This document shows, piece after piece, positions 1-14,278 of a DNA stretch of 14,685 nucleotides. The DNA is taken from assembly GCA_010028615.1 (NCBI GenBank), contig RHAS01000004.1:1-14685 (forward strand), in the 5' to 3' direction. The stretch comes from Actinomycetota bacterium (GTDB lineage: Bacteria > Actinomycetota > Actinomycetes > Actinomycetales > Microbacteriaceae). The position numbers and the translations under genes were made by a program. Every line of letters starts with the position of its first letter. Within the stretch, counting starts at the first letter, position 1. The notes under the pieces were generated by a model. The model did no database searches, was not told the origin of the DNA, and worked only from the letters and a program-made list of their open reading frames with translations.

Positions 1-55
1 CAGCGGCAACCAGGGCCACTAGCCCCAAAAGCGAAAGCCGAACAAACAGACGCAT
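1..55 (-). CDS. Exported protein, N-terminus only (runs off window)
   Basis: Only the first 18 codons are present, beginning with ATG at 55-53 on the minus strand. They read as a positively charged start (MRLFVRL) followed by a hydrophobic Leu/Val/Ala run, which is a typical signal peptide or first membrane segment. The start lies 4 bases past the stop codon of the upstream toroid lipoprotein, so the two are almost certainly co-transcribed under the same B12 riboswitch. The product cannot be identified from 18 residues. By context, a DUF4430 (transcobalamin C-terminal-like) secreted protein or a B12 transporter membrane component would fit, but this is inference. Confidence 0.6.
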   Translation of the reverse strand, partial: MRLFVRLSLLGLVALVAA

Positions 56-59
56 CGAA

Positions 60-1004
60 TCACTTGGTGTTATTCAAGACATCGATGAAGTTCAACTTTG
101 ACAAAGCCAGGATTGACTGGTTAGTTGCAAAGATGTCGCTATTTGGATCGGACCAAGCGCTTATCACACCGCCGTCTTTTGGATTAATCTGCTGCTTGAG
201 CCAATCAAGGCTCTCATCGACATTTTTACCCAAAGCAGTTAGCGCCATGATTGCGTAAGCAGTCCCATTCACATCTGCAGTGGTATCACCAAGCCAAAAC
301 TTTCCTTCGTAGCTGCTACCAATTAGCCAATCTGAAGTTCGGCTAATGGCAAACTGGATTGTGCCTTTATCTGTATCTTGGCTAAACTCCTCGGCCGCCT
401 TCAGAGCCATTATGACTAACCCAGTTACATCGGCAGCAGGACCGGACTCCATATCTCCGAGATAGTATTTCACGCCGCCGTTTTCTTCAATTTGAGATAC
501 GAGATGAAGCGCAACCTTAACTGCCAAATCATTCTCATCTGCCGCGAGCAATCCGAAAACGACGAGCGCAGTTGAGAAGTTATTGGTCTCCTCTTTTATA
601 GAGCCATCTTGATTGATTAGCGACTTTAGTTCGTCAACCTGAGTCTTCACCGTGACATCATCTTCAAAGTCAAGAACTTGAGCTGCAAAAAGAAATTGTC
701 CTTTTAGTCCAGGGCTGGTTAGGCTTTTCGTGTTTGCCTTAAGCCAGGTGGCTACTTTAGATAATTTGTCTTTGTATCCAACTCCGGTTAGCTGTACTAC
801 GGCTTCCATTGTTGACCCAATGTCACCACCAGATTTAAATGGGTCAAGATAATCTGCTTTTTCAAACTTATCCAAGATGTATTTACTTGTTTTTGGATTT
901 TGATCCGATCCATAGGTTCCTGCAGTGCAGGCAGAGAGGCTAAAAATAGTTAGAACAGATACTGCGGCCAGTAAAACTGAACGCACTTTGATTGATTTTG
1001 ACAT
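60..1004 (-). CDS. Alpha/alpha-toroid lipoprotein, putative transcobalamin-like B12-binding protein
   Basis: The 314-residue product starts with a signal peptide ending in a lipobox, LSAC, with the lipid-anchored cysteine at residue 26, so it is probably tethered outside the membrane. Residues ~40-310 are helical repeats with recurring segments such as ADVTGLVIMALKA and NGTAYAIMALTALG, preceded by short D/G-rich turns. This is the pattern of prenyltransferase / squalene-cyclase-like alpha-alpha toroids. The same fold forms the N-terminal domain of animal transcobalamin and intrinsic factor. The gene directly follows a cobalamin riboswitch, so a role in capturing B12 or a precursor at the cell surface is inferred from context plus fold. 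Enzymatic terpene cyclisation is unlikely: the protein is short, exported and shows no DXDD motif. The ATG at 1004 is supported by GAAAGG five bases upstream. No DUF4430 domain is visible in this chain; it may be in the downstream gene. Confidence 0.75.
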   Translation of the reverse strand: MSKSIKVRSVLLAAVSVLTIFSLSACTAGTYGSDQNPKTSKYILDKFEKADYLDPFKSGGDIGSTMEAVVQLTGVGYKDKLSKVATWLKANTKSLTSPGLKGQFLFAAQVLDFEDDVTVKTQVDELKSLINQDGSIKEETNNFSTALVVFGLLAADENDLAVKVALHLVSQIEENGGVKYYLGDMESGPAADVTGLVIMALKAAEEFSQDTDKGTIQFAISRTSDWLIGSSYEGKFWLGDTTADVNGTAYAIMALTALGKNVDESLDWLKQQINPKDGGVISAWSDPNSDIFATNQSILALSKLNFIDVLNNTK

Positions 1005-1026
1005 CGCAACCTTTCGGGTTTGCGAT
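1003..1026 (-). promoter_or_regulatory. RBS-sequestering hairpin (riboswitch expression platform)
   Basis: On the minus strand the arms ATCGCAA and TTGCGAT pair over 7 bp. Two further G-C pairs form above a single bulged A, closing a five-base loop. The 3' half contains the Shine-Dalgarno GAAAGG (1015-1010), and the helix reaches into the first bases of the ATG at 1004. Such a stem would block ribosome entry. Since it lies between the B12 aptamer and the gene, it is the likely OFF structure of a translational riboswitch. There is no U-tract, so a transcription terminator is less likely. The pairing is directly visible; the switching role is inferred. Confidence 0.65.
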
Positions 1027-1040
1027 CTCCATGCGACGAC

Positions 1041-1178
1041 GGACAGATTCTGCCCGACTCCACCTGCAGACCACGACAGTATTATTTGGAGTCGTTATTT
1101 GGGCAGGCATTCCGACTTATCGATAAATCGACTTACGGTTGCGGGTCAGCACTGGATTTCCACCAGTTTCCCCTGTCC
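1041..1178 (-). promoter_or_regulatory. Cobalamin riboswitch aptamer
   Basis: Read on the minus strand, this stretch contains the hallmark conserved blocks of the B12 riboswitch. They are a GGGAAACTGGTGGAAATCC block (about 1172-1154), the B12 box GCTGACCCGCAACCGTAAG (1150-1132), and the GGAATGCCTGCCC block (about 1123-1111). The ends close into a helix: GGACAG (1178-1173) pairs with CTGTCC (1046-1041), giving the expected P1 stem. A small extra hairpin, CAACTG/CAGTTG, lies just 5' of it (1197-1182). The element precedes the toroid lipoprotein by about 37 bases, the usual position for cis control. The family represses its genes when adenosyl- or other cobalamins bind. Which cobalamin is preferred cannot be told from the sequence alone. 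Confidence 0.93.
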
Positions 1179-1215
1179 AAACAACTGGGCTCAGTTGAGC
1201 GTTAGATAACCATAG

Positions 1216-1265
1216 CAGGAAACAGGTAAAACCCCTGAATGCCCTGTATTTCTGGGGGTTTCCTG
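1216..1265. repeat. Inverted repeat between riboswitch and ABC gene
   Basis: The 8-bp arms CAGGAAAC (1216-1223) and GTTTCCTG (1258-1265) are perfectly complementary. An alternative internal pairing AAACCCC (1229-1235) with the GGGGTTT that overlaps the right arm (1255-1261) is also possible. The repeat lies upstream of the minus-strand riboswitch, where the promoter for that transcript should be, and upstream of the plus-strand binding-protein gene. It could be an operator or a transcript hairpin. No function is assigned. Confidence 0.4.
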
Positions 1266-1279
1266 AAAAGTAGACCACT

Positions 1280-1349
1280 GTAATGAAATGTAACGATTTG
1301 GGCAATAACCCCTGTAGGAAGTCAGTTATTAGTTGTAGAGTTTCATTAC
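1280..1349. repeat. Nested inverted repeats in leader of ABC binding-protein gene
   Basis: Outer arms GTAATGAAA (1280-1288) and TTTCATTAC (1341-1349) are a perfect 9-bp inverted pair. Inner arms AATAAC (1304-1309) and GTTATT (1325-1330) form a second pair with almost the same centre. The plus strand could fold into one long interrupted hairpin, or the arms could be protein-binding half-sites. The non-coding stretch 1205-1410 that holds them contains no open reading frame I would trust. I could not place a convincing -35/-10 pair in it, although TAGAGT (1336-1341) fits an actinobacterial -10. Confidence 0.4.
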
Positions 1350-1362
1350 CCAAGGAACATTT

Positions 1363-1380
1363 GGCAGGGTTTTCCCTACC
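1363..1380 (+). repeat. Short hairpin just upstream of the binding-protein RBS
   Basis: The sequence AGGG-TTTT-CCCT, extended by two outer G-C pairs after one mismatch, forms a compact stem with a four-T loop. It lies about 20 bases before the AAGGAG ribosome binding site of the gene at 1411. It may shape or stabilise the 5' end of this transcript. There is no T-run after it, so it is not a terminator. Its role is unknown. Confidence 0.35.
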
Positions 1381-1410
1381 GGGTGTTTCTAACCATTACA
1401 AGGAGAAACA

Positions 1411-3417
1411 ATGATGAAAAGTCTAGCTAGAGCTACGGCTCTAGTCGCAGTTTCTGTTCTTGGTGTATCAGGTCTAAGCCTTGCACCAGCGAACGCAACT
1501 GCGGCAAACAAGACGATGATTGTTCAGGAAAGCAACATCCTTACGGGTCTTAACACTGCTGTGAACGGTAAGAACCTTCTTACTAACTCAAACGTTGTTG
1601 GCCCTACTGGTGCTGGTTTTACGTATTACAACAACAAAGCTCAGTTGATTCGTAACACCAATTTCGGAACTTTCAAGATCACAAGAAACGACTGTCAAAC
1701 TGCAGTTACAACTGACGAGTTCGGTTGTTTCTCAGTTACCTACACAGTTAAGAAGGGTCTAAAGTATTCAGACGGAACTCTGATTACTGCACAGGACCTT
1801 CTTCTAAGCCACGCAATTTCGAGCAGCGATTACTCGATGAAGGCTGGTCTTGGACAACCTGTTCAGAAGATCATCAACGGTGTCAAGGGAACTGGTTCAA
1901 AGTTTAACTCTGCCGGATACGGTGGAGCTTACGATGACCACACCCGTGCTGAGTCATTTGACATTAGCGATGACAACTTCTCATTGACCGTAAAGTATGA
2001 CGCATTCCAGCCAGACTGGCAGATTTTTGGTCCTGGTCCTGGTGCAGTTCACGCTTTGGTAGCGCTAGCTAAGGGTAAGAGAAGTCTTCAGACTGCTCGC
2101 ACCAACGCTACTTACAAGTCATTGTTCGAAGATGCATACTACGACTCAATTGCTGTGCTTCCAGCTGAAAGCTCAGAAGACTACGCAGACGCACTTGACG
2201 CTCGTACCTCTGCTCGTGCATTGATGACTAAGATCGCTTTGAAGTGGTCAACTGTCTGGAACATCACGACCGTTAACTCAAGCACCAACCCATTGCTGCT
2301 TATTTCTAACGGTACTTACCAGCTAAGCGAATGTCGTTCAACCGACTGTACTTTGGTTTTGAACCCTCGTGCAAACGAAGGTGGAGCTCCAAAGCGCACT
2401 GGTAACCTTGAAAGAATCATCTTCAAGATGGCTTCTAGCATCGCAAACTTCAGCGATACAGCAGTTGCACAGGCTTTGGCCAACGGTGAAATCGACCTGT
2501 ACTCAGGTGGATCATCTGCAGCTTTCTGGTCTGGCGTTTCAGATGCTAGCAAGTTGACTCGTTTCAGAGGAAACATCCTTACTTACGAGCACTTTGACCT
2601 AAGAACTGGAGATTCACAGTACGACTACGAAAGCGATGATGTAGCCGGATGTAACGCTCCATATGACGGTCCATTCAAGGGTAACGACCAAAAGGCTAAG
2701 GATCTACGTAAGGCATTCCTATTGCTAGTTCCAAGACCTAAGTTGGCAAACACCTATGTAGCAAAGGTCTTCGACCCAGCTGCAACTGACACCCCGATGC
2801 TAAACAGCTTGTTCTCGCTAACAACTGAAGGAGACTACTCCAAGGTTGTTGCTGGTTCGAGCCTTTACGTGAATGACTTCCTAAAGGATGAAACCACTCG
2901 CGTAAACATGGCTAAGGCTCTTGTTGCTAAGTGGAGCTCAACTCCGGTTACTGTGAAGGTGCTTACAAGCGCTAGAGCAAGCCGTGTTGACTCAATCACT
3001 CAGATCAAGATCTTGGGTGCTACTGCCGGATTCAACGTACAACACACAGTCAGACCTCTTGACTGGGGAGACATGCTCGACTGCAACGCTTTCGATGCTG
3101 CTCAGTTCGCATGGGTAAAGACTGGTCTTTCACAGACCGGAACCAACCCTCAGTACGAGTCTGATGGTGGAAACAACAGCGCTGGCTGGAACGACCCAAC
3201 CCTAGACAACCTCTTGGGTGAGTTCGAGAAGCTACAGACTGCAACATCTCTAATCACAACAAAGATCAACGCTGAGAAGAGACTGTGGTCAAACTACTTC
3301 ACGCTACCGATTTATCAGTGGCCTGGAGCATCAGCTTGGAACAAGGACTTGAAGAACATTCTTCCAAGCCCACTTGCTCCAAACGTAACCTGGAACAACT
3401 GGTCAATTAGCTACTAA
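1411..3417 (+). CDS. ABC transporter substrate-binding protein, family 5 (oligopeptide/dipeptide type)
   Basis: The 668-residue secreted protein is the solute receptor of the importer encoded downstream. The N-terminus is a signal peptide with AxA sites near residues 27-31 and no cysteine, so signal peptidase I cleavage is expected rather than lipid anchoring. That is unusual for a Gram-positive binding protein. The block YTVKKGLKYSDGTLITAQDL (residues ~111-130) is the typical family 5 (SBP_bac_5) signature. Cysteine pairs at 95/106 and 308/313 could form disulfides outside the cell. AAGGAG at 1400-1405 serves either ATG; the second one (1414, 8-base spacing) may be the true start. Lys is nearly always AAG and Asn nearly always AAC, unlike the permease genes, which suggests strong expression. 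The substrate is probably peptides, but this family also takes up nickel, sugars and other ligands, so specificity is unproven. Confidence 0.88.
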   Translation: MMKSLARATALVAVSVLGVSGLSLAPANATAANKTMIVQESNILTGLNTAVNGKNLLTNSNVVGPTGAGFTYYNNKAQLIRNTNFGTFKITRNDCQTAVTTDEFGCFSVTYTVKKGLKYSDGTLITAQDLLLSHAISSSDYSMKAGLGQPVQKIINGVKGTGSKFNSAGYGGAYDDHTRAESFDISDDNFSLTVKYDAFQPDWQIFGPGPGAVHALVALAKGKRSLQTARTNATYKSLFEDAYYDSIAVLPAESSEDYADALDARTSARALMTKIALKWSTVWNITTVNSSTNPLLLISNGTYQLSECRSTDCTLVLNPRANEGGAPKRTGNLERIIFKMASSIANFSDTAVAQALANGEIDLYSGGSSAAFWSGVSDASKLTRFRGNILTYEHFDLRTGDSQYDYESDDVAGCNAPYDGPFKGNDQKAKDLRKAFLLLVPRPKLANTYVAKVFDPAATDTPMLNSLFSLTTEGDYSKVVAGSSLYVNDFLKDETTRVNMAKALVAKWSSTPVTVKVLTSARASRVDSITQIKILGATAGFNVQHTVRPLDWGDMLDCNAFDAAQFAWVKTGLSQTGTNPQYESDGGNNSAGWNDPTLDNLLGEFEKLQTATSLITTKINAEKRLWSNYFTLPIYQWPGASAWNKDLKNILPSPLAPNVTWNNWSISY

Positions 3418-3438
3418 TTGATTTAGTTTCCAAAAGAA

Positions 3439-3472
3439 TTGTTGGTGGCGTCCTTCGGGGCGCCACCAACAA
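3439..3472 (+). terminator. Strong intercistronic stem-loop after the binding-protein gene
   Basis: A perfect 12-bp stem (TTGTTGGTGGCG with CGCCACCAACAA) continues inward through U-G and two C-G pairs to a UUCG tetraloop. This is a very stable structure, 21 bases after the stop codon. There is no clean T-run directly after it (GGCTATATGGGGG follows), so it may be a partial or Rho-assisted terminator, or a block against 3' exonucleases. Either would leave the binding protein more abundant than the permeases, as is common for ABC importers. Confidence 0.65.
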
Positions 3473-3502
3473 GGCTATATGGGGGCTTCTTTTGAGTGAT
3501 TT

Positions 3503-3546
3503 GGGTCTATAAAAAGAAGAATCTGTTAGAATTTTTTCTAAGACCC
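3503..3546 (+). repeat. AT-rich inverted repeats in the dppB-type leader
   Basis: TTAGAA-TTTT-TTCTAA (3526-3541) is a perfect short palindromic hairpin. The outer arms GGGTCT (3503-3508) and AGACCC (3541-3546) flank it. The element lies 25 bases before the permease start and overlaps a possible -10 (TAGAAT, 3527-3532). It may be a promoter with an operator, allowing the permease genes to be transcribed separately from the binding protein. No good -35 at 17 bases is visible, so this is tentative. Confidence 0.35.
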
Positions 3547-3570
3547 ATACTAAAGAAGGTTTGAATACCT

Positions 3571-5106
3571 ATGTTGACCTATGTCGCTCGAAGAATCGCA
3601 ATCGCATTACTTATTCTTTTTGGTTCTACTTTTCTCTCATATAACTTGGCGGCGTATTCCGGTGATCCGCTTCAGGCGATTAGAGAATCCACCGACCCCA
3701 AAAAAGAATCTATTATTGCTGAGCTAACAAAAACCTATCAACTTGATGTTCCGCCTCCAGCTAGGTACTTTCTTTGGCTAAAAGGAATTCTAGGTGTCTT
3801 GATTGGTAAGCCGGATTTCGGTATTTCAGTAAGTACAAGAATTCCAGTAATCGACTCTTTAGCTTTAGCAATCCCAGCAACAATTCGTTTGGTTACTGCT
3901 GCCACAATTTTGGCAATTGTAGTGGGAATCACATTTGGAATCATTAGCTCGATTCGTCAGTATTCCCGCCTTGACTACTCACTTACTTTCCTGGCCTTCG
4001 TCCTCTTCTCGCTTCCAATTTTCTGGGTTGCTGTGCTTTTGAAGGAATACATGGCTATTGGGTTCAATGACTTTCTCGCCAAACCGCAGATAGATTTGAT
4101 ATGGAATGTGCTGATGTCCTTCCTTCCAGGTTTGATAATTGCTGGATTCATAGGTGGAAACAGGAAGCGATTCCTAATTTCATGGGCGGCTTCTTTTGCA
4201 GCATTCTTCGTCTTATTCTTCTTTGCCAGCGCTACTGGTTGGTTCCGTGATCCATCAATTGGAATTGTTGGAGTAGCGATAATTGGAGTATCGACTTCTC
4301 TTGGTCTTTGCCACATTTTTGCAGGTCTTCAGAATAAGAAAGCTCTCTACGCTGGTCTAACCTCGGTTGCCGTTGGAGTAGGCGTTTACTTTCCGTTCAA
4401 CATGATTGCTAACGGATCAGCAAACTACATGATGATTGTTGGTTTCGCAATCCTGGTACTGGTTGTTAGCTACTTCATAGGCTACTTCTTCACCTCCATC
4501 GACAGAGGGCCAGTAATCACAGTTTCTATGCTTTCGGCAGTGTTCGTGGCTCTTTTCACGGTGCTTGACAGGTTCATGAAATCCTGGAAAGAGTACTACG
4601 TCCTCACCGATGGTAGACCAATTCAGACAATGTCTGCTTATAACATCACCCTCAAGTCCAACGATTTCTGGATTGTCAACCTCGACATCATTACTCACCT
4701 TATTTTGCCTACAACAGCTTTGACTTTGATTTCCTTCGCTGGATACCTAAGGTATTCAAGAGCCTCTGTGCTTGAGGTGCTGAACATGGATTATGTACGT
4801 ACCGCTAGAGCTAAGGGAATTCCTGAGCGTGAGGTCATTCTTCGTCACGCACTGAGAAATGCCATGATTCCACTGACTACCCTTATCGCGTTTGACATCG
4901 CAGGAATTGTTGGTGGCGCGATTATCACAGAAAACGTGTTTGGATGGCGAGGAATGGGAAGCTTGGCGGCTGAAGCTATTGGTGCGCAGGACTTGAACCT
5001 GCTCATGGCTACCTTCAGCATCTCAGCATTCTTGGCTGTTATGGCAACTTTGGCAGCTGACGTGTTCTATACCATCCTGGATCCTCGGATTAGGATTCGC
5101 GGTTAG
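3571..5106 (+). CDS. Enlarged DppB/OppB-type ABC permease
   Basis: This is the first membrane subunit of the importer. The N-terminus (MLTYVARRIAIALLILFGST) and the C-terminal part, with the EAA loop TARAKGIPEREVILRHALRN (residues 411-430) that contacts the ATPase, are typical of DppB. The protein is 511 residues, whereas the family is usually 300-340. The extra ~200 residues lie in one block, about 165-370, after the FSLPIFWVAVLL helix and before HLILPTTALT. The block carries about six more hydrophobic segments (near 176-195, 201-223, 229-252, 258-280, 286-308 and 316-334). The reading frame is intact across the block, so it is an insertion and not a frameshift. The start is supported by AAGAAGG at 3553-3559, with 11-base spacing. 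The function of the inserted segment is unknown. Confidence 0.88.
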   Translation: MLTYVARRIAIALLILFGSTFLSYNLAAYSGDPLQAIRESTDPKKESIIAELTKTYQLDVPPPARYFLWLKGILGVLIGKPDFGISVSTRIPVIDSLALAIPATIRLVTAATILAIVVGITFGIISSIRQYSRLDYSLTFLAFVLFSLPIFWVAVLLKEYMAIGFNDFLAKPQIDLIWNVLMSFLPGLIIAGFIGGNRKRFLISWAASFAAFFVLFFFASATGWFRDPSIGIVGVAIIGVSTSLGLCHIFAGLQNKKALYAGLTSVAVGVGVYFPFNMIANGSANYMMIVGFAILVLVVSYFIGYFFTSIDRGPVITVSMLSAVFVALFTVLDRFMKSWKEYYVLTDGRPIQTMSAYNITLKSNDFWIVNLDIITHLILPTTALTLISFAGYLRYSRASVLEVLNMDYVRTARAKGIPEREVILRHALRNAMIPLTTLIAFDIAGIVGGAIITENVFGWRGMGSLAAEAIGAQDLNLLMATFSISAFLAVMATLAADVFYTILDPRIRIRG

Positions 5107-5161
5107 TAAAAGTAAATCGGTTTGTAAAGAAACAAAGTAGATAAATGGAAGGCCAATTCAA

Positions 5162-6157
5162 ATGAGTGAAGTTGGACAAAGAGAGCAACTTGTGACCACA
5201 GAGGGCATGAGCCAGGGAACTATTATTCGTAAGAAGTTTCTGCAGCACAAGCCGGCTGTAGCAGGACTGATCTTCATGATTTTCTTTGCCATTTTTGTTT
5301 ACACTGCCTCAGGTATTCACCTCGGCACTAACGAGGCAAAGTTCACCATCCAAGGTTGGTGGAAATATAGCCACGAAGACCTACTTCCAACTGGTTCATG
5401 TTTGTCTGGTTGCCCAAGTCCGGATCACCCATTTGGACAAATTGCTAACGGACGTGACTACTTCGCTTTGGTAATGCGTGGAGCTGAAATTTCACTCATG
5501 GTGATGGTGATTATTGGTTCTCTGGGAGCTTTTATTGGAACTGTCATCGGTGCGGTATCTGGTTTCTTCGGGGGAATCGTCGATGCAGTTATGATGCGTT
5601 TCACCGACTTCATTATTACTGTTCCTAGCATCCTTATTGGAGCGGTTATTGGTTACAACTTCGGTGCTCAAGGTGTTGTTACTTTGGCAGTCTTCCTTGG
5701 TGTCTTTGCCTGGACGGGTCTGGCTCGGTTGGTAAGAGGTGAATTCCTTTCTCTTCGCGAAAGAGAATTCGTTGATGCCGCAAGGGTAGCAGGTGCCTCA
5801 AACGCTCGAATAATCTTCAAGCACATTCTCCCGAACTCTGTTGGTGTGATTATTGTGTCGACGACCCTATTGCTATCGAGCTCGATTTTGACCGAAACCG
5901 GCCTTTCCTTCCTAGGATTTGGTGTTCAAGCCCCGGATGTTTCACTCGGTTTGCTAATTAACCAGTATCAGGGAGATTTCACTTTCGCACCGTGGCTATT
6001 CTGGTGGCCTGGCATCATCATTATTCTTATTGCTCTTAGCATTAACTTCGTTGGTGATGGTCTGAGAGATGCATTTGATCCGAGACAACGTAAAGATGTC
6101 AAGCGCAGGAAGAAAGCTAGGCTAGAGGCCCAGCAGTCAGCGGCGGCTAATCAGTGA
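5162..6157 (+). CDS. DppC/OppC-type ABC permease
   Basis: This second membrane subunit has 331 residues, close to the family norm. An N-terminal cytoplasmic stretch and first helix (about 33-52) are followed by the external HPFGQIANGRDYFALVMRGA block (residues ~89-108), a variant of the conserved HPFGTDxxGRD motif. Further helices follow, and then the EAA loop FVDAARVAGASNARIIFKHI, which docks on the ATPase. The tail is basic (DPRQRKDVKRRKKAR). AAGG at 5149-5152 lies 9 bases before the ATG. The 55-base gap to the upstream permease shows no terminator, so the two are probably one transcript. The TGA at 6155-6157 overlaps the 3' end of the opposite-strand PH-domain gene, so transcription towards the ATPase gene must cross that gene in antisense. 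Confidence 0.92.
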   Translation: MSEVGQREQLVTTEGMSQGTIIRKKFLQHKPAVAGLIFMIFFAIFVYTASGIHLGTNEAKFTIQGWWKYSHEDLLPTGSCLSGCPSPDHPFGQIANGRDYFALVMRGAEISLMVMVIIGSLGAFIGTVIGAVSGFFGGIVDAVMMRFTDFIITVPSILIGAVIGYNFGAQGVVTLAVFLGVFAWTGLARLVRGEFLSLREREFVDAARVAGASNARIIFKHILPNSVGVIIVSTTLLLSSSILTETGLSFLGFGVQAPDVSLGLLINQYQGDFTFAPWLFWWPGIIIILIALSINFVGDGLRDAFDPRQRKDVKRRKKARLEAQQSAAANQ

Positions 6158-6729
6158 ACAAAGTTATAAAGCAGGGCAATAATTGCCAGAGACATCAGCG
6201 CGACGGAAAGCCAGTTGATGGTTTTTTCAGTTCCGTTCAAGGTGTCCGGTTGAATGTCCTTTTGGTAGCGAAGCGCGAGCACGAATGCTGCCCCGCTAGC
6301 GGAATTGGGCGATTCGCTGGGAGTAATTATCTTCTTGCTGTCCAAATCTCTAGAGGAGAAGTCGGCTTTATGAGCTCTCCTTGCAGCGAAAATACTTGGA
6401 GCTGGAGCGGCCCAAGAGGCATATTTGGCCTCGGCGGTTTGAATGGTCAGGGAGTATCGAGTAAGCATTCCAACCACCTCAGTCCAAGGGATTCTCACCG
6501 TGGCAAAGGGATTGTGAATTTCTATTCTGCTTTTGCTGAAAATAATTTTTGGTGTGATGGCGAATACCCAAATAAAAACACAAATCGCGAATCCGTTGCA
6601 GAGAGTAACAATGGCTTCGGTCAGGTAGTTAGCCTGCAAGAAGGAATAAAAGGTCCATCCCGTGATCATAACGGTGATAGCCAGGTAGACCCAGCCGGAT
6701 TTACCGCGAAAAACGTGTATGTCTTGCAC
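6151..6729 (-). CDS. PH-domain (bPH_6-type) membrane protein
   Basis: This 192-residue protein has two N-terminal membrane helices (about 13-32 and 37-58), a central domain and a C-terminal helix (about 171-189). The segment RIEIHNPFATVRIPWTEVVG (residues 69-88) and the following WAAPAP (106-111) are typical of the small actinobacterial membrane proteins with a bacterial PH domain. Their function is not established. The start is GTG at 6729. No Shine-Dalgarno is visible, but a TAATCT element lies 7 bases upstream, which suggests a leaderless transcript. The gene sits on the opposite strand between the second permease and the ATPase of the importer, and its stop codon overlaps the end of the permease gene. 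The long plus-strand frame opposite it has no recognisable protein features. Confidence 0.8.
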   Translation of the reverse strand: MQDIHVFRGKSGWVYLAITVMITGWTFYSFLQANYLTEAIVTLCNGFAICVFIWVFAITPKIIFSKSRIEIHNPFATVRIPWTEVVGMLTRYSLTIQTAEAKYASWAAPAPSIFAARRAHKADFSSRDLDSKKIITPSESPNSASGAAFVLALRYQKDIQPDTLNGTEKTINWLSVALMSLAIIALLYNFVH

Positions 6730-6736
6730 AATTTTG

Positions 6737-6742
6737 AGATTA
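6737..6742 (-). promoter_or_regulatory. Probable -10 element for leaderless PH-domain gene
   Basis: On the minus strand TAATCT matches the actinobacterial TANNNT -10 consensus and ends 7 bases before the GTG start at 6729. Transcription would therefore begin at or next to the start codon. The lack of any Shine-Dalgarno agrees with leaderless translation, which is common in actinobacteria. No clear -35 is visible. Confidence 0.4.
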
Positions 6743-6803
6743 CAGGAACTTTTGAAAAACGAAGCGCATCAAGCGATTTTCCATTTAGAAAGGTAGCAGC
6801 GTA

Positions 6804-8669
6804 ATGGCAGCGAAAGAGTTAATCCTAGAAGTTAAGGATTTTAACGTCGATTTCTGGGTTGAGGGCCAATGGTATCCAGCGGCAATCAACATGAACTTCA
6901 AGCTAGCTGCTGGAGAGGTGCTCGCCATCGTTGGTGAGTCTGGTTCGGGTAAGTCGACCACAGCAATGGGCTTGATGGGTCTTCTAGCTGAGAACGCCAA
7001 CGTCACAGGAAGCGTGAAGGTAAAAGGTGTAGAGATGCTACACCAGCCGATTAGCGTGTTGCGTAAGTTCCGCGGTAAAGAAGTTGCATACATCTTCCAG
7101 GAGCCGATGACCGCTTTGAACCCGGTATACACCGTTGGTTTCCAGATTGTTGAAGTTCTAAGAAACCACTTTGACATGGGTCCTGAAAGCGCCAAAGAGC
7201 GAGCTATTGAGTTATTGACTCTAGTTGAAATTCCAGATCCTGCGCTTAGCTTCAACAAGTATCCGCACCAGCTATCTGGTGGACAGCGTCAGCGCGCCAT
7301 GATTGCTCAATCGCTAGCTTGTGATCCAGCATTGCTAATTGCTGATGAGCCGACTACCGCCCTAGATGTGACTGTTCAGGCAGAAATTCTTGACCTGATG
7401 CGCAACTTGAAAGACAAATTGAACTCAGCTGTCTTGTTGATTACCCACGACATGGGTGTAGTTGCTGATCTCTCTGATCGAATTTTGGTTATGAAAGACG
7501 GTTTGACCGTTGAAGTGGACACTGCTGAAAACATCTTTAACCGTCCTAAGCACCCATACACAAAGTCCCTACTCGCCTCAGTTCCAAAATTGGGTTCGGT
7601 AAAGGTAAGAAAATTAGCTAGCAGTGAAGCAAAAGCGCAACCAGTTCTTGAAGTCAAGGATCTGGTAATTGAGTATCCAAAACGTGGACGTATTCCTGCT
7701 TTCCGTGCTGTTGACGGTGTCAGCTTTGACATCAAACCAGGTGAAATCCTTGGTCTTGTAGGTGAGTCAGGTTCAGGTAAAACCACCGTAGGTCGTGCCG
7801 CGATTGGTTTGCTACCAGTGCACTCAGGATCGATCAAACTTCTCGGGGATGAAATCGCTGGAGCAGACATGAAAAAGCTCAGAGCTATTCGTCAACACAC
7901 CGGTATCGTCTTTCAGGATCCTGCATCTTCACTAAACCCACGTCTACCAATCGGTGAGAGCATCGGTGAGCCGCTGTTCCTGGCCAAGCTTGCCAAGGGC
8001 GAAGAATTGAACAGGCGAGTTGAGGATTTGCTTGACTCGGTAGAACTTCCTCGTTCCTACCGCAACCGTTACCCACACGAGCTATCTGGTGGTCAGAAGC
8101 AACGTGTTGGTATCGCTCGCGCTCTTGCTATGTCACCGGATCTGCTAATTGCCGATGAGCCAACCTCAGCTCTTGACGTATCGGTGCAGGCTAGATTCCT
8201 GGATCTGCTTCAAGACCTACAAGACAAGTTGAAGTTTGCTTGTTTGTTTATTACTCACGACATTGGTGTTGTCGACATTCTGGCTCACCGTATCGCAGTT
8301 ATGCAGTATGGAAAACTTGTAGAAGTTGGACCAAGAGACCAGGTTCTGAACCACCCAACCCAGATGTATACCAAGACATTGCTAGCGGCTGTTCCAGTCC
8401 CAGATCCAAAGGAACAGAAAAAGCGCCGCGAAGCTAGAGCGAAACTTCTTGCTGGAGCGGGAATCAAAACCAAGACCCTTGCACCTGCATCAGAGGAAAA
8501 GTCTTCAGCACCGGCTAAGGCAACTGTCAAGAAGGCAGCTCCTGCAAAGGCTGCAGTCAAGAAGGCAGCTCCTGCAAAGAAAGCGGCCCCTGCAAAGCCG
8601 AAAGCTCCGGCTAAAAAGGCAGCCCCTGCAAAGCCAACGACTAAGAAGGCCGCTCCAAAAAAGAAGTAG
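6804..8669 (+). CDS. Fused DppD-DppF-type ABC ATPase with Lys/Ala/Pro-rich tail
   Basis: A single 621-residue chain carries both nucleotide-binding domains of the importer. Domain 1 has Walker A GESGSGKST (44-52), Q-loop IFQEP (97-101), signature LSGGQRQR (157-164), Walker B LLIADEP (177-183) and switch histidine in ITHD (213-216). Domain 2 has GESGSGKTT (320-328), VFQDP (369-373), LSGGQKQR (427-434), LLIADEP (447-453) and ITHD (483-486). Each domain ends with the peptide-transporter motif HPYTKSLL or its MYTKTLL variant. All catalytic residues appear intact. Residues ~561-621 form a disordered tail of AAPAK/VKKAAPAK repeats resembling histone H1 tails, which is not a usual part of these ATPases. 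The start is supported by GAAAGG at 6788-6793. The gene is separated from the permeases only by the opposite-strand PH-domain gene, so it likely energises that transporter. Confidence 0.93.
   Translation: MAAKELILEVKDFNVDFWVEGQWYPAAINMNFKLAAGEVLAIVGESGSGKSTTAMGLMGLLAENANVTGSVKVKGVEMLHQPISVLRKFRGKEVAYIFQEPMTALNPVYTVGFQIVEVLRNHFDMGPESAKERAIELLTLVEIPDPALSFNKYPHQLSGGQRQRAMIAQSLACDPALLIADEPTTALDVTVQAEILDLMRNLKDKLNSAVLLITHDMGVVADLSDRILVMKDGLTVEVDTAENIFNRPKHPYTKSLLASVPKLGSVKVRKLASSEAKAQPVLEVKDLVIEYPKRGRIPAFRAVDGVSFDIKPGEILGLVGESGSGKTTVGRAAIGLLPVHSGSIKLLGDEIAGADMKKLRAIRQHTGIVFQDPASSLNPRLPIGESIGEPLFLAKLAKGEELNRRVEDLLDSVELPRSYRNRYPHELSGGQKQRVGIARALAMSPDLLIADEPTSALDVSVQARFLDLLQDLQDKLKFACLFITHDIGVVDILAHRIAVMQYGKLVEVGPRDQVLNHPTQMYTKTLLAAVPVPDPKEQKKRREARAKLLAGAGIKTKTLAPASEEKSSAPAKATVKKAAPAKAAVKKAAPAKKAAPAKPKAPAKKAAPAKPTTKKAAPKKK
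8526..8579 (+). repeat. Tandem 30-bp-period repeat encoding the AAPAK tail
   Basis: The 24-bp unit starting GTCAAGAAGGCAGCTCCTGC is found twice without change (8526-8549 and 8556-8579), separated by 6 bases, giving a 30-bp, ten-residue period (VKKAAPAK plus two residues). Degenerate AAPAK units continue to 8664. Identical synonymous codons point to recent duplication, so the tail length may vary between strains. Confidence 0.75.
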
Positions 8670-8809
8670 CCTTCGGCTTTGGCTCTAAGCAAAAAGCGTC
8701 GTTGAGTTTGCACCTGCTAATTGATGCCCAAGTCGGTTAGACTCAAAGAGTTCAATCGAACAAATTCACCGTCATCTCCGTTGATGGTGCCATGCCCAAA
8801 GGAAAATTA

Positions 8810-10726
8810 ATGGCTCTTATCAAAAGAGAAGACATTCGCAATGTCGCGATCGTGGCGCACGTCGACCATGGTAAAACCACTCTGGTGGATGCAATGCTGC
8901 GTCAAACGGGAGCATTTGGCGAACACGCCAATCTAGGTGAACGCATTTTGGACTCAGGAGATCTTGAGCGCGAAAAGGGAATCACCATTCTGGCAAAGAA
9001 CACAGCCATCGCCTATAAGGGCCCAAGCTCAGGTGGCAAAGAAATAACCATCAACGTGATTGACACTCCAGGCCACGCCGATTTCGGTGGGGAAGTTGAA
9101 CGTGGACTATCCATGGTTGACGGTGTCGTGCTGCTGGTGGATGCCTCCGAAGGCCCTCTCCCACAGACTCGATTTGTTCTTCGCAAAGCCCTAGAAGCGA
9201 ATCTAACGGTTATTCTGCTTGTAAATAAGACCGATCGACCTGATGCCAGAATCGACGAGGTAGTCAACGAGACCCACGATCTTCTTCTTGGATTGGCAAG
9301 CGATATTCACGAAGATGTTCCAGATCTGGACATCGATTCGGTCCTCGACCTGCCAGTAATTTATGCATCAGGTCGTGCAGGTAGAGCAAGCCTAAATAAA
9401 CCTGCCGATGGCTCACTTCCGGATAGCGACAACCTCGAACCGCTATTTGCCGCCATTCTCAAACACATTCCAGCTCCAACCTACGATGACGAGTCGCCAT
9501 TGCAGGCGCACGTGACAAACCTAGACGCCTCGCCATTTCTCGGACGACTTGCCCTACTTCGAATATTCAATGGAACCATTCGTAAGGGCCAGCAGGTTGC
9601 TTGGGTGAGGCATGACGGCACAACTCAAAATGTGAAAATCACGGAGCTGCTAAAGACTCAAGCGCTGGAGCGAGTTCCAACCGAAGAGGCAAGTGCTGGA
9701 GATATTGTTGCAGTTGCTGGAATCGAAAATATCACAATCGGGGAAACACTCGCCGATCCGAATGACGTCCGTCCACTTCCGCTTATTACAGTAGACGATC
9801 CGGCAATCTCGATGACCATCGGTATTAATACATCTCCTATGGCTGGTCGAGTCAAAGGAGCTAAGGTCACCGCGAGACTAGTTAAGGACCGCTTGGATCG
9901 AGAACTAATCGGTAACGTGTCAATCAAGGTGCTACCTACCGATCGACCAGATGCCTGGGAAGTTCAGGGTAGAGGCGAATTGGCCTTGGCTATTCTGGTT
10001 GAGCAAATGCGTCGCGAAGGCTATGAGCTAACCGTTGGTAAGCCACAGGTGGTTACCAGAAGAGTTGACGGCAAACTGCATGAGCCAGTCGAAGATTTAA
10101 CCATTGATGTTCCAGAAGAATTCCTTGGCGCAATCACCCAACTAATGGCAGCTCGTAAAGGTCGCATGAAGAACATGGTAAATCACTCCACCGGTTGGGT
10201 TCGCATGGAGTTTATGGTGCCATCCCGCGGATTGATTGGTTTTAGGACAGAGTTTCTGACCACAACCAAGGGAACAGGTATAGCTAATGCCATCTCGGCT
10301 GGCTATGAACCTTGGGCCGGAGAGATCATCACTAGAACTAACGGTTCGCTGGTAGCCGATAGAGCAGGGGTTGCCACCCCGTTTGCCATGATTGCCCTTC
10401 AAGAGCGCGGCAGTTTCTTTGTTGAGCCGACATCGGAAGTTTATGCCGGCATGGTAGTAGGCGAGAACTCCAGGGGTGAAGATATGGATGTGAATATCAC
10501 CAAGGAGAAAAAACTTACTAACATGCGCGCGTCTTCCTCGGAAGAGTTTCAGTCGCTTACTCCACCGAGAAAACTATCTCTCGAGGAGTGTTTGGAGTTT
10601 GCTCGAGAAGATGAATGTGTCGAGGTAACTCCAGAGGCAATCAGGATTCGCAAAGTCGAGCTTGATGCCAACATTCGAGCAAGAGCCGTTGCCGCCAAAA
10701 AGCGCGCCAATGAAAACGTCAACTAG
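8810..10726 (+). CDS. typA: Translational GTPase TypA/BipA
   Basis: TypA is a ribosome-associated GTPase related to EF-G that helps large-subunit assembly and growth under stress such as cold. From the ATG at 8810 the protein has 638 residues. The G-domain shows G1 AHVDHGKT (16-23), the G2 region EKGITI (55-60), G3 DTPGH (85-89) and G4 NKTD (139-142; many homologues have NKID). The C-terminal block [20 protein letters not shown] is diagnostic of TypA. An in-frame ATG at 8792 would add MPKGKL, but AAAGGA (8798-8803) sits 6 bases before 8810, so the later start is preferred. The 140 bases upstream hold a possible -10 (TAGACT, 8738-8743) and only a weak hairpin (AGCC-TTC-GGCT, from 8670). The stop codon shares a CTAG with the opposite-strand iron permease gene. 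Confidence 0.96.
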
Positions 10727-11529
10727 TTAGTTTTGACTTTTGCGGGCTTGAGAAATAGCCAGCCGACAATCGCAACATAGCCAAACCAGAATACGCTTTC
10801 TAGCATTGATGGAGCGGATCTAAAACTGATTGTTCCGCGAAGCAGAGTATCAATCCACGAGTCAGGTGTGATCACGCCAGATAGATCGTAGGTGTTTTGG
10901 GTAAGGAATGGGAACCAACCAATTTCCTGTAGTTCATGAATTCCATAGGCCAAAATTCCTGCGGCAACAATAATCAAGAAAGCGCCGGTTACTTGGAAAA
11001 ACTTGCTCAGGTTTAGTTTCAATGCGCCTCGATAGACGAGATAGCCCAGCACGGCGGCGATTGCCAAACCAAGCGAAGCTCCTAGCACTGGGTTTGTATC
11101 CGAGCCGGTGGCGCGGCTAGCGCTCCAGAGAAACACCGCTGTTTCGACACCTTCACGGATTACAGCAAAGAACGCCACAAGAATAAGGGTGATGTTTTTC
11201 TCGCCGGCCTGATCAATTTTCTCGTGCAATTCCTTGCGCATGTTCTTGGACTGTCTTGCCATCCAGAAAATCATCCAGGTAACAAAGACCACAGCCAAAA
11301 TTGAGGCAAAACCAGCAATAACTTCGTTGATTCCAGCTGGTGCAACTTCGACAAATTCGGTTAAAAGCACACCAACACCAATCGAGAACAGCACTGCAAT
11401 CAGGGTTCCCCAGAAAATGCCCGGTAAGGCTGCCTTTCGGCCAGATTTGATGCAGTAAGCGACCAGGATTCCGACGATTAGGGAGGCTTCAAGGCCTTCA
11501 CGGAGGCCGATTAGGAAGTTAGCGAGCAC
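10723..11529 (-). CDS. efeU: FTR1/EfeU-family iron permease
   Basis: This 268-residue polytopic membrane protein has the two REGxE iron-translocation motifs of the FTR1/EfeU family, REGLE (10-14) and REGVE (125-129), each in a hydrophobic helix. About seven membrane segments are visible, and the length matches EfeU. It probably moves iron across the cytoplasmic membrane. The usual partners EfeO and EfeB are not adjacent: upstream is a divergent deacetylase gene and downstream is the convergent typA. The start is GTG at 11529, with GAAAGG (11540-11535) five bases upstream. The nearby ATG at 11533 is out of frame. An iron-box-like sequence lies 37-55 bases upstream. The TAG stop overlaps the typA stop by a shared CTAG, leaving no room for a terminator. 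Confidence 0.92.
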   Translation of the reverse strand: MLANFLIGLREGLEASLIVGILVAYCIKSGRKAALPGIFWGTLIAVLFSIGVGVLLTEFVEVAPAGINEVIAGFASILAVVFVTWMIFWMARQSKNMRKELHEKIDQAGEKNITLILVAFFAVIREGVETAVFLWSASRATGSDTNPVLGASLGLAIAAVLGYLVYRGALKLNLSKFFQVTGAFLIIVAAGILAYGIHELQEIGWFPFLTQNTYDLSGVITPDSWIDTLLRGTISFRSAPSMLESVFWFGYVAIVGWLFLKPAKVKTN

Positions 11530-11565
11530 ACATGCCTTTCGCGATGGTTATCAGACCATTCGAAG

Positions 11566-11584
11566 TTAGGGTTACCTAAGTTAA
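11566..11584. promoter_or_regulatory. DtxR/IdeR-like iron box
   Basis: TTAGGGTTACCTAAGTTAA matches the 19-bp DtxR/IdeR palindrome consensus TTAGGTTAGCCTAACCTAA at 14 of 19 positions by hand alignment. It sits 37 bases upstream of the efeU GTG and overlaps a possible minus-strand -10 (TAACTT, 11568-11563). Iron-loaded DtxR-type repressors block iron-uptake promoters in actinobacteria, so iron repression of efeU is a reasonable inference. The site is also about 60 bases before the deacetylase ATG at 11645 and could affect that unit too. A separate short inverted repeat, ATGGT/ACCAT, lies at 11544-11559. Confidence 0.6.
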
Positions 11585-11644
11585 TTTACCCTGCGGGCCA
11601 TCCAATCGTCAATAGGCTTAAGGTTCTAAACTAAGGTTTTTCTT

Positions 11645-12775
11645 ATGGCTAAACAAAGATTCAATGCCAAGCGCATACTTTTGGTGCACGCGCATCCAGA
11701 CGATGAGTCTTTACAAACAGCTCACGTTATGGCTGATGCAGTTGAACGTGGTGCCGAGGTATTTCTACTCACCCTCACCAGAGGTGAACGCGGAAAAGCG
11801 AAGCTCGAGGAATTAAAGTCTCTCGAAGCAAATCGAGCAGCTATGGGTGCTTTTCGTGCTGGTGAACTTAAAAATGCAATGGCTGCACTAGGCGTGAAGA
11901 ACTTTAAATTTGCTGGAACAAGAGCTTACCTAGATAGTGGTGTCCGGATCGGAAACCTAGGAGTTCCAACTACTCCGCTTCGATTAGATGAAATGTCACT
12001 AGCTGCAGTATCAACACCTGTTGTCGCGGATGACATTTTTCAAGTTATGAAGAATTTCAAACCGGATGCCGTTATCACCTATAACTCAAAAGGTGGTTGG
12101 GGGCATCCAGATCATAAGAAGGCGCACGATGCTACGGCCATGGCGATGCGTCGATACCGCAAGCAAGTAAAGGGCAAAAAGCCTGCCTTCTGGGTTATCG
12201 CCGAGCCAGGCGAGCGAGCAAGCGTTTCTATTGGCGGAGAGAAAACGGCTGCCCTGAAAAAAGCAGCGCTGGCCGCTCATGCTTCGCAAGTTTCCATTTA
12301 TCGTGATACCTACTCAGTTGTTGATGGCATTGAATTCAGGTTTGACCAGCTAGAGCGACTAAGACTAGCCAGCCCGAACATACTGCCCTGGTTCAAACCT
12401 GCCGTTTTGGCATTCTTTGGTTTACCGCTAGGTCTGGCACTTGGCTACGCGGGAGCATATGTTCACAACATAGTTGCCGATAATGGTAGGTCATCGCCGC
12501 TAGGGCTCTATTTAGCCTTAGGGGCAACCGCCTCAATAACCTTTGGTCTTCGGATGCTTAGAAACTCCAGAGGCGCTCTATACCTACTAAACGCCGGAAT
12601 GACCATAGCCATCTGGTGGCTATCGAGAAATCCAACCTTTGGTGCCTTTATTGATGACAATAAAAACGGCAATCGCTATGTGCTATTTGCTCTTCTTATT
12701 TGCTTGGTAGCTGCCGTTTTCCCAAGAATTGATTTGGCCAAGTGGCGTGCTAGATCAAATAAGCCGCATCTGTAG
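11645..12775 (+). CDS. PIG-L/MshB-type N-acetylglucosaminyl deacetylase with C-terminal membrane domain
   Basis: Residues ~8-235 are a PIG-L (LmbE) zinc deacetylase. HAHPDDE (15-21) provides the metal and catalytic residues, and GHPDH (153-157) carries another zinc ligand. MshB, in mycothiol synthesis, removes the acetyl group from GlcNAc-Ins; the closely related Mca cleaves mycothiol conjugates. Neighbouring fdxA and dapC genes support the MshB assignment, since MshB has similar neighbours in other actinobacteria. MshB is usually ~300 residues. Here residues ~250-376 add about four hydrophobic segments (251-275, 284-303, 310-327 and 344-360), so the enzyme is probably membrane-bound with its catalytic domain in the cytoplasm. 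AAGG at 11633-11636 supports the ATG. Whether the organism makes mycothiol cannot be judged from this window; another GlcNAc-type substrate remains possible. Confidence 0.8.
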   Translation: MAKQRFNAKRILLVHAHPDDESLQTAHVMADAVERGAEVFLLTLTRGERGKAKLEELKSLEANRAAMGAFRAGELKNAMAALGVKNFKFAGTRAYLDSGVRIGNLGVPTTPLRLDEMSLAAVSTPVVADDIFQVMKNFKPDAVITYNSKGGWGHPDHKKAHDATAMAMRRYRKQVKGKKPAFWVIAEPGERASVSIGGEKTAALKKAALAAHASQVSIYRDTYSVVDGIEFRFDQLERLRLASPNILPWFKPAVLAFFGLPLGLALGYAGAYVHNIVADNGRSSPLGLYLALGATASITFGLRMLRNSRGALYLLNAGMTIAIWWLSRNPTFGAFIDDNKNGNRYVLFALLICLVAAVFPRIDLAKWRARSNKPHL

Positions 12776-12816
12776 AGAGATAATTGAATTAGCCAACAAT
12801 TGAGGATTTAGTAAAA

Positions 12817-13137
12817 GTGACTTATGTAATAGCTCTGCCATGCGTAGATGTCAAAGACAAGGCCTGTATTGCCGAATGTCCGGTTGACTGCATTTACGAG
12901 GGGGACAGGATGCTCTATATCCACCCCGACGAGTGTGTTGATTGTGGTGCTTGTGAGCCGGTATGCCCAGTTGAGGCTATCTACTACGAAGACGATCTTC
13001 CGGCTCAGTGGGCTGACTATTACAAAGCTAATGTTGAGTTTTTTAGCACCATCGGATCTCCTGGAGGAGCAGCTAAAGTTGGTCCGATCCCAGGCGATCA
13101 CGAAGTTGTCTCCGCATTACCGCCACAAGGCGAGTAA
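12817..13137 (+). CDS. fdxA: 7Fe ferredoxin ([3Fe-4S][4Fe-4S])
   Basis: This 106-residue soluble electron carrier has the cysteine spacing of seven-iron ferredoxins. C9, C17 and C50 fit the [3Fe-4S] cluster; C21, C40, C43 and C46 fit the [4Fe-4S] cluster, with the extra C25 also seen in relatives. The C-terminal extension after residue 55 (DLPAQWADYYKANVEFF) is typical of the FdxA/FdxC group. The start is GTG at 12817, preceded by TGAGGA (12801-12806). It lies 41 bases after the deacetylase gene and 3 bases before the aminotransferase gene, with no terminator, so the three are likely one operon. Its electron partner is unknown. Confidence 0.95.
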   Translation: MTYVIALPCVDVKDKACIAECPVDCIYEGDRMLYIHPDECVDCGACEPVCPVEAIYYEDDLPAQWADYYKANVEFFSTIGSPGGAAKVGPIPGDHEVVSALPPQGE

Positions 13138-13140
13138 TCC

Positions 13141-14256
13141 ATGTTTAACGGCTTGCCAGAGTATCCCTGGAAAAAACTAAAGCCATACGAGGAAATCGCT
13201 AAAAAGTATCCAGCGGGCATCGTTGATCTTTCGGTTGGCTCTCCAGTTGACCCAACTCCAGAAGTTATTCAACAAGCTCTAGTCAGAGCCACAAACGCAC
13301 CTGGCTATCCATCCACAGCAGGCTCTTTAGAACTTCGCGAAGCAATTATCGAGTGGTTCGCAAGGCGTCGTGGCGTACCAAATCTGACCATCGATCAGGT
13401 TATGCCCAGCATAGGTTCAAAAGAACTTATTTCCTTCCTGCCTCTTTTTCTAGGACTTGGTAAAGGTGATGTCGTGGTGCAACCAAGAGTTGCCTATACG
13501 GCTTATGTCGTAGGTGCCAGCCTGGTTGGTGCAGAGATTGTTAGTTCTGATGATCCAGAAAGTTGGCCAGAGAATACAAAATTGATCTGGCTAAACTCAC
13601 CAGGTAACCCCGATGGAAAAGTTTTAGACGTTGATTACTTGCGTAGAGCAGTTAATCGAGCACGCGAACTTGGCGCGGTCTTAGCTTCTGATGAATGCTA
13701 CGCGGAATTGGGTTGGGGTAGATGGGAAGCAGAGAGAATCCCTTGCCTACTAGATCCAGCTGTCTGCGATGGCAACCAAGATAATCTGCTGGTGCTTTAT
13801 TCGCTGAGTAAGCAATCGAATCTAGCTGGCTATCGAGCAGCCTTTGCTGCCGGCGATAGCAAACTTATCCAGCCGATCGTAAATCTCCGCATGCACAGTG
13901 GCCTAATGATGCCAGCACCGGTGCAGCAGGCGGTTATCGCAGCACTAAAAGATGAGGCACATGTTGCACTCGAGCGGAAAATCTATCAAGCGCGACGGGA
14001 TATTTTGCTGGCTGCGGTTAGAGACTACGGGTTCAAGGTCTCTGACTCTGAGGCTGGACTCTATATTTGGGCAACTCTAGGTCAGGACTGTTGGATCACC
14101 GTGAAGCAAATGGCTGAAATTGGCATCCTTGTAGTGCCGGGGGAGTTCTACGAGGCTGGCGGAAGTGACTATGTCCGATTCTCGCTTACCGCTAGTGATG
14201 ACAAAATCAGCGAGGGTGCCAATCGGCTTAGTAATGCCATAAAGTTAAATAGTTAA
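13141..14256 (+). CDS. dapC: N-succinyldiaminopimelate aminotransferase (DapC type)
   Basis: This is a class I/II PLP-dependent aminotransferase of 371 residues. It probably converts N-succinyl-2-amino-6-ketopimelate to N-succinyl-LL-diaminopimelate with glutamate as donor, a step towards lysine and peptidoglycan. The PLP lysine is K224 in SLSKQSNLAGYR. The aspartate that contacts the PLP ring nitrogen is D184 with Y187 nearby (DECY). NSPGNPDG (152-159) is the conserved cofactor-site loop, and R346 in YVRFSL should bind the substrate carboxylate. The gene starts 3 bases after the ferredoxin stop; AAGG (13127-13130), inside the ferredoxin gene, is the ribosome binding site. The ferredoxin-aminotransferase pair is the usual actinobacterial arrangement, which supports DapC over other aminotransferases. 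Confidence 0.9.
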   Translation: MFNGLPEYPWKKLKPYEEIAKKYPAGIVDLSVGSPVDPTPEVIQQALVRATNAPGYPSTAGSLELREAIIEWFARRRGVPNLTIDQVMPSIGSKELISFLPLFLGLGKGDVVVQPRVAYTAYVVGASLVGAEIVSSDDPESWPENTKLIWLNSPGNPDGKVLDVDYLRRAVNRARELGAVLASDECYAELGWGRWEAERIPCLLDPAVCDGNQDNLLVLYSLSKQSNLAGYRAAFAAGDSKLIQPIVNLRMHSGLMMPAPVQQAVIAALKDEAHVALERKIYQARRDILLAAVRDYGFKVSDSEAGLYIWATLGQDCWITVKQMAEIGILVVPGEFYEAGGSDYVRFSLTASDDKISEGANRLSNAIKLNS

Positions 14257-14278
14257 AACAACTACAGGAGAACCCCCT

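Follow-up and report, generated by a model that had tools for sequence, protein, structure and literature searches.

Why does a cobalamin riboswitch stand before the gene of a lipoprotein built of paired helices, and what is such a locus for? The question is raised by a window of 14,685 nucleotides from an actinobacterium of the family Microbacteriaceae (assembly GCA_010028615.1, contig RHAS01000004.1, positions 1 to 14,685; contig C224 of the host genome), the window being the whole stretch of DNA analyzed here. The assembly amounts to 1.21 Mb in 316 contigs and is 80% complete. We propose, with a probability of roughly 85%, that the locus forms the regulated first part of an operon for B12 import, in the order alpha-beta-T-A-S and led by the riboswitch, where alpha is the lipoprotein, beta the protein encoded after it, and T, A, and S the parts of an energy-coupling factor (ECF) importer. 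A preliminary description made from the sequence had read the locus as a bacterial transcobalamin-like B12 catcher and had ventured a guess at the genes beyond position 1; in substance, both are supported. The features on which the argument turns are the following:

1..55, minus strand: start of the beta gene, 18 codons, truncated by the contig end (translation MRLFVRLSLLGLVALVAA)
60..1004, minus strand: alpha protein, a lipoprotein of 314 amino acids with an alpha/alpha toroid fold (open reading frame, lipobox, and predicted structure)
1002..1027, minus strand: predicted hairpin whose loop holds the ribosome-binding site (AAAGG, 1014-1010) and whose 3' arm holds the lipoprotein start codon; probable expression platform (conserved arms and centroid fold)
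1085..1229, minus strand: cobalamin riboswitch aptamer (RF00174; cmscan 40.2 bits, gathering score 31.5, E = 2.5e-07)

The call of a B12 riboswitch was thus confirmed with Infernal. The alignment spans positions 1-189 of the RF00174 model and is the sole match at the gathering level within the window. The aptamer reaches 1229, 51 bases past the end of the feature noted earlier (1178). All core blocks and a closing P1 stem had been claimed; the core was found to be well matched and the P1 stem to be weak, with 7 of the 12 P1 pairs standard in the RF00174 alignment. Riboswitches of this class respond to complete cobalamins. Between the end of the riboswitch at 1085 and the start of the lipoprotein reading frame at 1004 lie 80 bases. 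Of 13 leaders from the window's clade, 11 share the hairpin arms GATCGC and GCGATG, and 10 have GAAAGG between the arms; in the window's own downstream leader the hairpin appears in the centroid fold. Plentiful intracellular cobalamin would bind the leader RNA, whereupon the hairpin would mask the lipoprotein gene's start codon together with its ribosome-binding site, and the operon would be turned down. We infer this translational shut-off and claim nothing firmer, because the whole leader, folded to minimum energy, has its start-codon strand paired with the aptamer and lacks the hairpin, and because the leaders of L010, L013, and L029 favor another pairing; of 13 folds of short leaders, only about 8 contain the hairpin.

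The alpha protein carries a signal peptide and a lipobox cysteine, C26, and the lipobox pattern is kept in 22 of 23 aligned homologs, as the earlier assignment to the lipoproteins required. Its AlphaFold2 model consists of paired helices with a mean predicted local distance difference test score of 90.9, and the top structural matches of the model are alpha/alpha toroids, in agreement with the fold first suggested. In Pfam only a squalene-cyclase similarity below threshold was obtained (E = 0.0074), and a profile search of the PDB returned terpene cyclases only, the best being squalene-hopene cyclase (E = 4e-4). The catalytic motif of class II terpene cyclases is DxDD. This motif is absent from 23 of 23 aligned Rhodoluna-type alphas and was found in 1 of 13 alphas of the SCO2321 type; a role as a class II terpene cyclase was ranked lower. 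A BtuF-type binding protein was also rejected, as neither alpha nor the beta protein of the relative L001 has such a Pfam match and alpha is a toroid.

The reading frame of beta opens four bases past the alpha stop, at 55, and the initial 17 residues of its translation are identical to those of beta at the same place in L001. L001 is a Rhodoluna metagenome-assembled genome and the closest relative within the genome collection (80% identity), for which reason the host is taken as a small freshwater actinobacterium. The full-length beta homolog of L001 (6952-7482) has 176 amino acids. Its beta domain was aligned whole with that of transcobalamin over 95-107 residues (VIA), in sequence order. The link to transcobalamin comes through this fold comparison only; the sequence routes gave none, and a profile search of the PDB with beta found nothing below E = 0.89. 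The DUF4430 domain anticipated beyond position 1 had no match in the window's genome, and the neighboring beta protein does have the fold of the transcobalamin beta domain. The computations support beta as a membrane-anchored protein with that fold. Both domains of the transcobalamin family, the toroid and the beta domain, are represented in the window and in L001, as separate genes. Many beta homologs bear the label PF28005, and a Pfam scan of four such proteins gave no match.

The genes that follow are known from relatives. The T protein of L001 matches PF02361 (CbiQ, 41.4 bits, cut-off 25), the A protein matches ABC_tran (165.2 bits, cut-off 25), and the S subunit matches PF12822 (43.2 bits, cut-off 30.7), a general vitamin-type S family. 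A CbiO-like ATPase and a CbiQ-like protein stand in one operon with beta in L001, L005, and L006. Taken together, the T, A, and S subunits resemble a complete ECF importer. The ECF parts expected beyond position 1 are thus present in relatives; the window itself holds the start of beta and then the contig ends. When the S profile was compared with all PDB chains, there was no significant match (best E = 0.91) and no tie to CbrT or another solved S subunit. A small protein with a helix-turn-helix-like C-terminus is encoded after the S gene of L001 (10800-11252, plus strand), and L005 and L006 have similar open reading frames close to the operon.

Conservation was determined in a genus set of 60 genomes and a class set of 197 sampled genomes. 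Matches to RF00174 at E up to 0.001 occur in 43 of the 60 genus genomes, one place each, and 25 of them exceed the gathering score. Of the 30 riboswitch places whose loci were retrieved, 28 have an adjoining alpha match and 27 an adjoining beta match; several of the missing matches fall at contig ends, among them the window's. The toroid gene of L018 is broken, with its middle missing, and in the Rhodoluna relatives L024, L030, and genome G161 beta comes directly after the riboswitch with no toroid. In the class set, matches to the SCO2322 family were found in 87 genomes, 67 over the cut-off. Among 20 of these 67 places, hand-picked across families, T, A, and S adjoin the SCO2322 gene in 19 (the exception is L083) and a SCO2321 toroid adjoins it in 13. 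Immediately ahead of the operon, 12 of the 20 (L067, L071, L072, L076-L083, and L085) have a gathering-level match to a cobalamin-clan riboswitch (RF00174, RF01482, or RF01689), and a weaker RF00174 match of 24.2 to 31.4 bits was found in six more (G236, G246, G253, G307, G336, and G361).

The SCO2321 and SCO2322 families differ from the window's proteins in the order of their parts. When Rhodoluna betas were aligned with SCO2322-type betas, the block order was swapped. A profile of ten SCO2322-type betas scored a median of 25.4 bits against 56 Rhodoluna betas and 37.9 bits against the same sequences doubled, a single alignment crossing the join in the five inspected; of 56 shuffled doubled sequences, 26 gave no alignment and none scored above 0.2 bits. 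Eighteen of the weak SCO2322 places (L087-L104) proved to be operons with the Rhodoluna-type order. Beta has a toroid in its vicinity at 14 of them and T at 15, and a gathering-level riboswitch adjoins 6 of the 14 loci scanned. Their alphas are permuted relative to the SCO2321 type: doubling joined the pieces in 8 of 11 (for L093 the score rose from 197 to 259 bits), and it gave no gain in the five SCO2321-type self-controls inspected. Doubling their betas produced a gain in 6 of 10.

The topology of the window's alpha rests on profile-profile comparison. Its family aligns end to end with the L087-L104 alphas (E = 5e-14, 299 columns), over 78 columns with the SCO2321 type, and over 183 columns, across the join, with the doubled SCO2321 type. 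The corresponding values for beta are 120 columns with the L087-L104 type, 48 with the SCO2322 type, and 117 with the latter doubled. The permutation is opposed by the reciprocal test, in which a Rhodoluna profile gained at most 1.7 bits on ten doubled SCO2322-type betas, by the three alphas whose pieces were not joined (L089, L095, and L100), by the four betas with no gain (L088, L094, L099, and L104), and by the window's own alpha, which did not gain in the single-profile doubling test. The window's type appears to have the transcobalamin order, because VIA aligns Rhodoluna beta with transcobalamin in sequence order, and SCO2321 and SCO2322 look like circular permutants of both halves. On balance we lean toward the view that actinobacteria use a two-piece, membrane-tethered transcobalamin as the external trap of an ECF B12 importer, a kind of transporter in which the S subunit is usually given the role of binding protein. 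The trap would occur in two topologies, the window's in the order of animal transcobalamin and the widespread SCO2321/SCO2322 type as its circular permutant in both halves. If this is true, both shells of the corrinoid sandwich were re-cut while importer and riboswitch were kept. Two genomes of genus g109, G366 and G295 (L098, L099, L105, and L051), contain a SCO2321/SCO2322-type operon and a second one with a Rhodoluna-type beta.

In one locus the two proteins are joined. A single open reading frame of 1214 amino acids (L097:5733-9377, minus strand) has a hydrophobic N-terminus and C-terminus, a beta domain at residues 30-200 by the Rhodoluna profile, and two toroid-like stretches at 407-668 and 838-1132; a second beta and the T and S genes follow. 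This fusion, one case known as a reading frame only, speaks for alpha and beta acting jointly. At L094:4682-8953 (minus strand) two alpha-beta pairs stand in tandem ahead of one ECF module, and the locus has several cobalamin riboswitches.

The premise that the organism cannot make B12 agrees with a search for CbiC/CobH (PF02570), which marks corrin-ring synthesis: 0 of 60 genus genomes have it, against 7 of 14 control genomes; this is a single marker, and salvage genes were outside the search. The domain of B12-dependent methionine synthase (MetH) is found in 35 of the 60. As many, 35, exceed the cut-off for NrdJ, the class II ribonucleotide reductase, among them the window's genome at 613 bits. 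Within the window's clade (the 11 genomes with an alpha match above 360 bits), MetH is matched in 0 of 11 genomes and NrdJ over the cut-off in 9, with a partial match in G159 and none in G188. In G203, which is 99% complete, the NrdJ profile finds nothing besides NrdJ, whereas many other genus genomes show a second reductase at about 190-243 bits. From these results we infer that the clade needs B12 for DNA synthesis. Beta or riboswitch and MetH or NrdJ occur together in 46 of the 60 genomes, with the operon only in 2, an enzyme only in 5, and neither in 7 (Fisher p = 6e-5, with many of the genomes incomplete and related ones not independent of each other). In this tally G186 and G187 were scored as MetH-positive by PF02310 and G159 as NrdJ-positive by its partial match, and the beta scraps of G188 were excluded. 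G188 retains alpha, has beta in scraps, and has no match for the riboswitch, MetH, or NrdJ; it looks like a lineage that is losing the system.

The operon is predicted with high confidence to import B12 or a close corrinoid, and the system is very probably a B12-scavenging one. At the outer face of the membrane, alpha and beta would close around one corrinoid as do the two domains of transcobalamin; the pair would then hand it to the S subunit, and import would be driven by ATP hydrolysis by the fused ATPase. The cell would need such import because it appears to have no corrin-ring synthesis and a ribonucleotide reductase of the B12-dependent type. The joint binding of the corrinoid by alpha and beta is predicted with moderate confidence, since some lineages do without the toroid.

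A number of results weigh against the proposed import function. Terpene cyclases outscore intrinsic factor among the Foldseek matches to alpha, the Foldseek E values for beta are modest (best 0.013), and neither alpha nor the L001 beta matches PF01122 or PF14478 (DUF4430) in Pfam at E up to 1. The T, A, and S genes are outside the window's own sequence, the contig ending 18 codons into beta. Alpha is missing, and hence dispensable, in some Rhodoluna (L024 and L030), and it is absent beside beta in 7 of the 20 class loci (L072-L076, L078, and L084); the absence is taken as real because the riboswitch directly precedes beta there, at most about 160 bases away. At the operons of G245 and G316, 2 of the 20 class loci, there is no riboswitch match even at E = 1. 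The co-occurrence test ignores relatedness and incompleteness, and one of the five genus genomes that have a B12 enzyme and no match for riboswitch or beta is 91% complete.

Three other explanations were weighed. That the operon imports cobalt or another metal, B12 regulating it as the end product of cobalt use, is very improbable. The T protein does match a family named "cobalt transport protein", and some ECF systems under B12 riboswitches are thought to carry cobalt, according to the accessible text of one paper (PMC2667541). However, cobalt for corrin synthesis would have no use in these genomes because CbiC is absent from all 60; the S subunit belongs to the vitamin-type PF12822 and not to CbiM, and the fold of beta is that of B12 carriers. 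It is unlikely that beta alone binds B12 with the ECF complex, the toroid being an accessory (a lid, an anchor, or an enzyme-like relic) rather than half of a sandwich. Alpha adjoins beta in most loci seen, one locus fuses the two in a single chain, the partner of this beta fold in animals is a toroid, and the cyclase motif is missing as described above. Quite unlikely, though overlapping with B12 import and not separable from it by sequence, is a ligand that is a corrinoid precursor or analogue (cobinamide or pseudocobalamin) salvaged after uptake. It is disfavored by a riboswitch class that responds to complete cobalamins, and it gains from published work: the choice between B12 and its precursors was left open in 2007 (PMC1796856), and ECF-CbrT transports cobinamide as well (PMC5997447), both as given in the accessible parts of these papers. 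Import of B12 or a close corrinoid remains our preferred explanation.

Parts of this system have been predicted before, as far as the accessible text of the papers goes. Burroughs et al. defined the SLBB superfamily in 2007 and reported that bacteria fuse toroids to SLBB domains in operons that also encode CbiO and CbiQ, in hosts usually without key enzymes of B12 synthesis, for which B12 scavenging was predicted; a transcobalamin-like clade was named in low-GC Gram-positives, planctomycetes, and euryarchaea, with no mention of actinobacteria for it in the accessible text (PMC1796856). Those proteins share with the window's type the toroid, what appears to be a transcobalamin-like beta-grasp domain, secretion, the CbiO/CbiQ operon, and hosts that lack B12 synthesis. 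They are mainly fusions, and the beta-first ones are resembled by L097, whereas the window's type is split, lipoprotein, actinobacterial, riboswitch-led, and accompanied by circular permutants. Kang et al. in 2017 proposed riboswitch-led ECF modules as the cobalamin importers of acI bacteria (PMC5301498). Both systems have an ECF module led by a cobalamin riboswitch, and both belong to freshwater actinobacteria auxotrophic for B12; a transcobalamin-like protein is not mentioned in the accessible text, and the class loci L076 and L078, taken to be acI, have beta and lack alpha. In ECF-CbrT of Lactobacillus delbrueckii, the S subunit is treated as the binding protein (PMC5997447). ATP-driven B12 import of the ECF type is shared with it, here as a prediction, but the window-type operon encodes two extra outer proteins, and its S profile has no significant PDB match.

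The animal carriers transcobalamin, intrinsic factor, and haptocorrin (PDB 2pmv, 3kq4, 4kki, and 2bb5) have in common with the window's type the toroid and beta folds, an extracellular location, and a tie to B12, here through the riboswitch. They are one soluble chain and work by endocytosis, whereas the window's type comprises two separate membrane-tethered proteins with an ECF importer and no family match to DUF4430 or PF01122. With SCO2321 and SCO2322 (NCBIfam NF053823 and NF040672) it shares the operon with T, A, and S and, usually, the cobalamin riboswitch. It stays far below their curated cut-offs (alpha 53.9 of 300 bits, L001 beta 24.8 of 85), and the swapped block order in both proteins is consistent with circular permutation. 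As far as the literature was searched, the split actinobacterial form and SCO2321/SCO2322 as apparent circular permutants of both halves are new; nothing on the split pair or the permutation was found among the results listed, in a search that did not reach the 2009 ECF survey of Rodionov et al. or most subscription papers. The system is also lipoprotein-anchored and is missed by the sequence models used.

If the reading is correct, a function could be given to two actinobacterial families named by NCBI only after Streptomyces locus tags, and it would become clear how small freshwater bacteria that depend on B12 obtain a vitamin in short supply. For the question of where the B12 carriers of animals came from, there would be bacterial counterparts, two apparently permuted forms and one fused. 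Genome editing has been published for Rhodoluna lacicola (accessible text of PMC11577799), and the prediction is therefore directly testable.

Two further features were found in the window:

1411-8669, plus strand: operon of an Opp/Dpp-type ATP-binding cassette transporter (binding protein, two permeases, and dual ATPase; family matches), divergent from the riboswitch
10723-11529, minus strand: EfeU/FTR1 iron permease (NF041756, 305 bits)

The divergent Opp-type operon was considered as a part of the B12 system and set aside because its family matches are to peptide/nickel transporters and it lies on the opposite strand. Its first permease (3571-5106) is long, at 511 amino acids, and the match to BPD_transp_1 begins only at residue 316.
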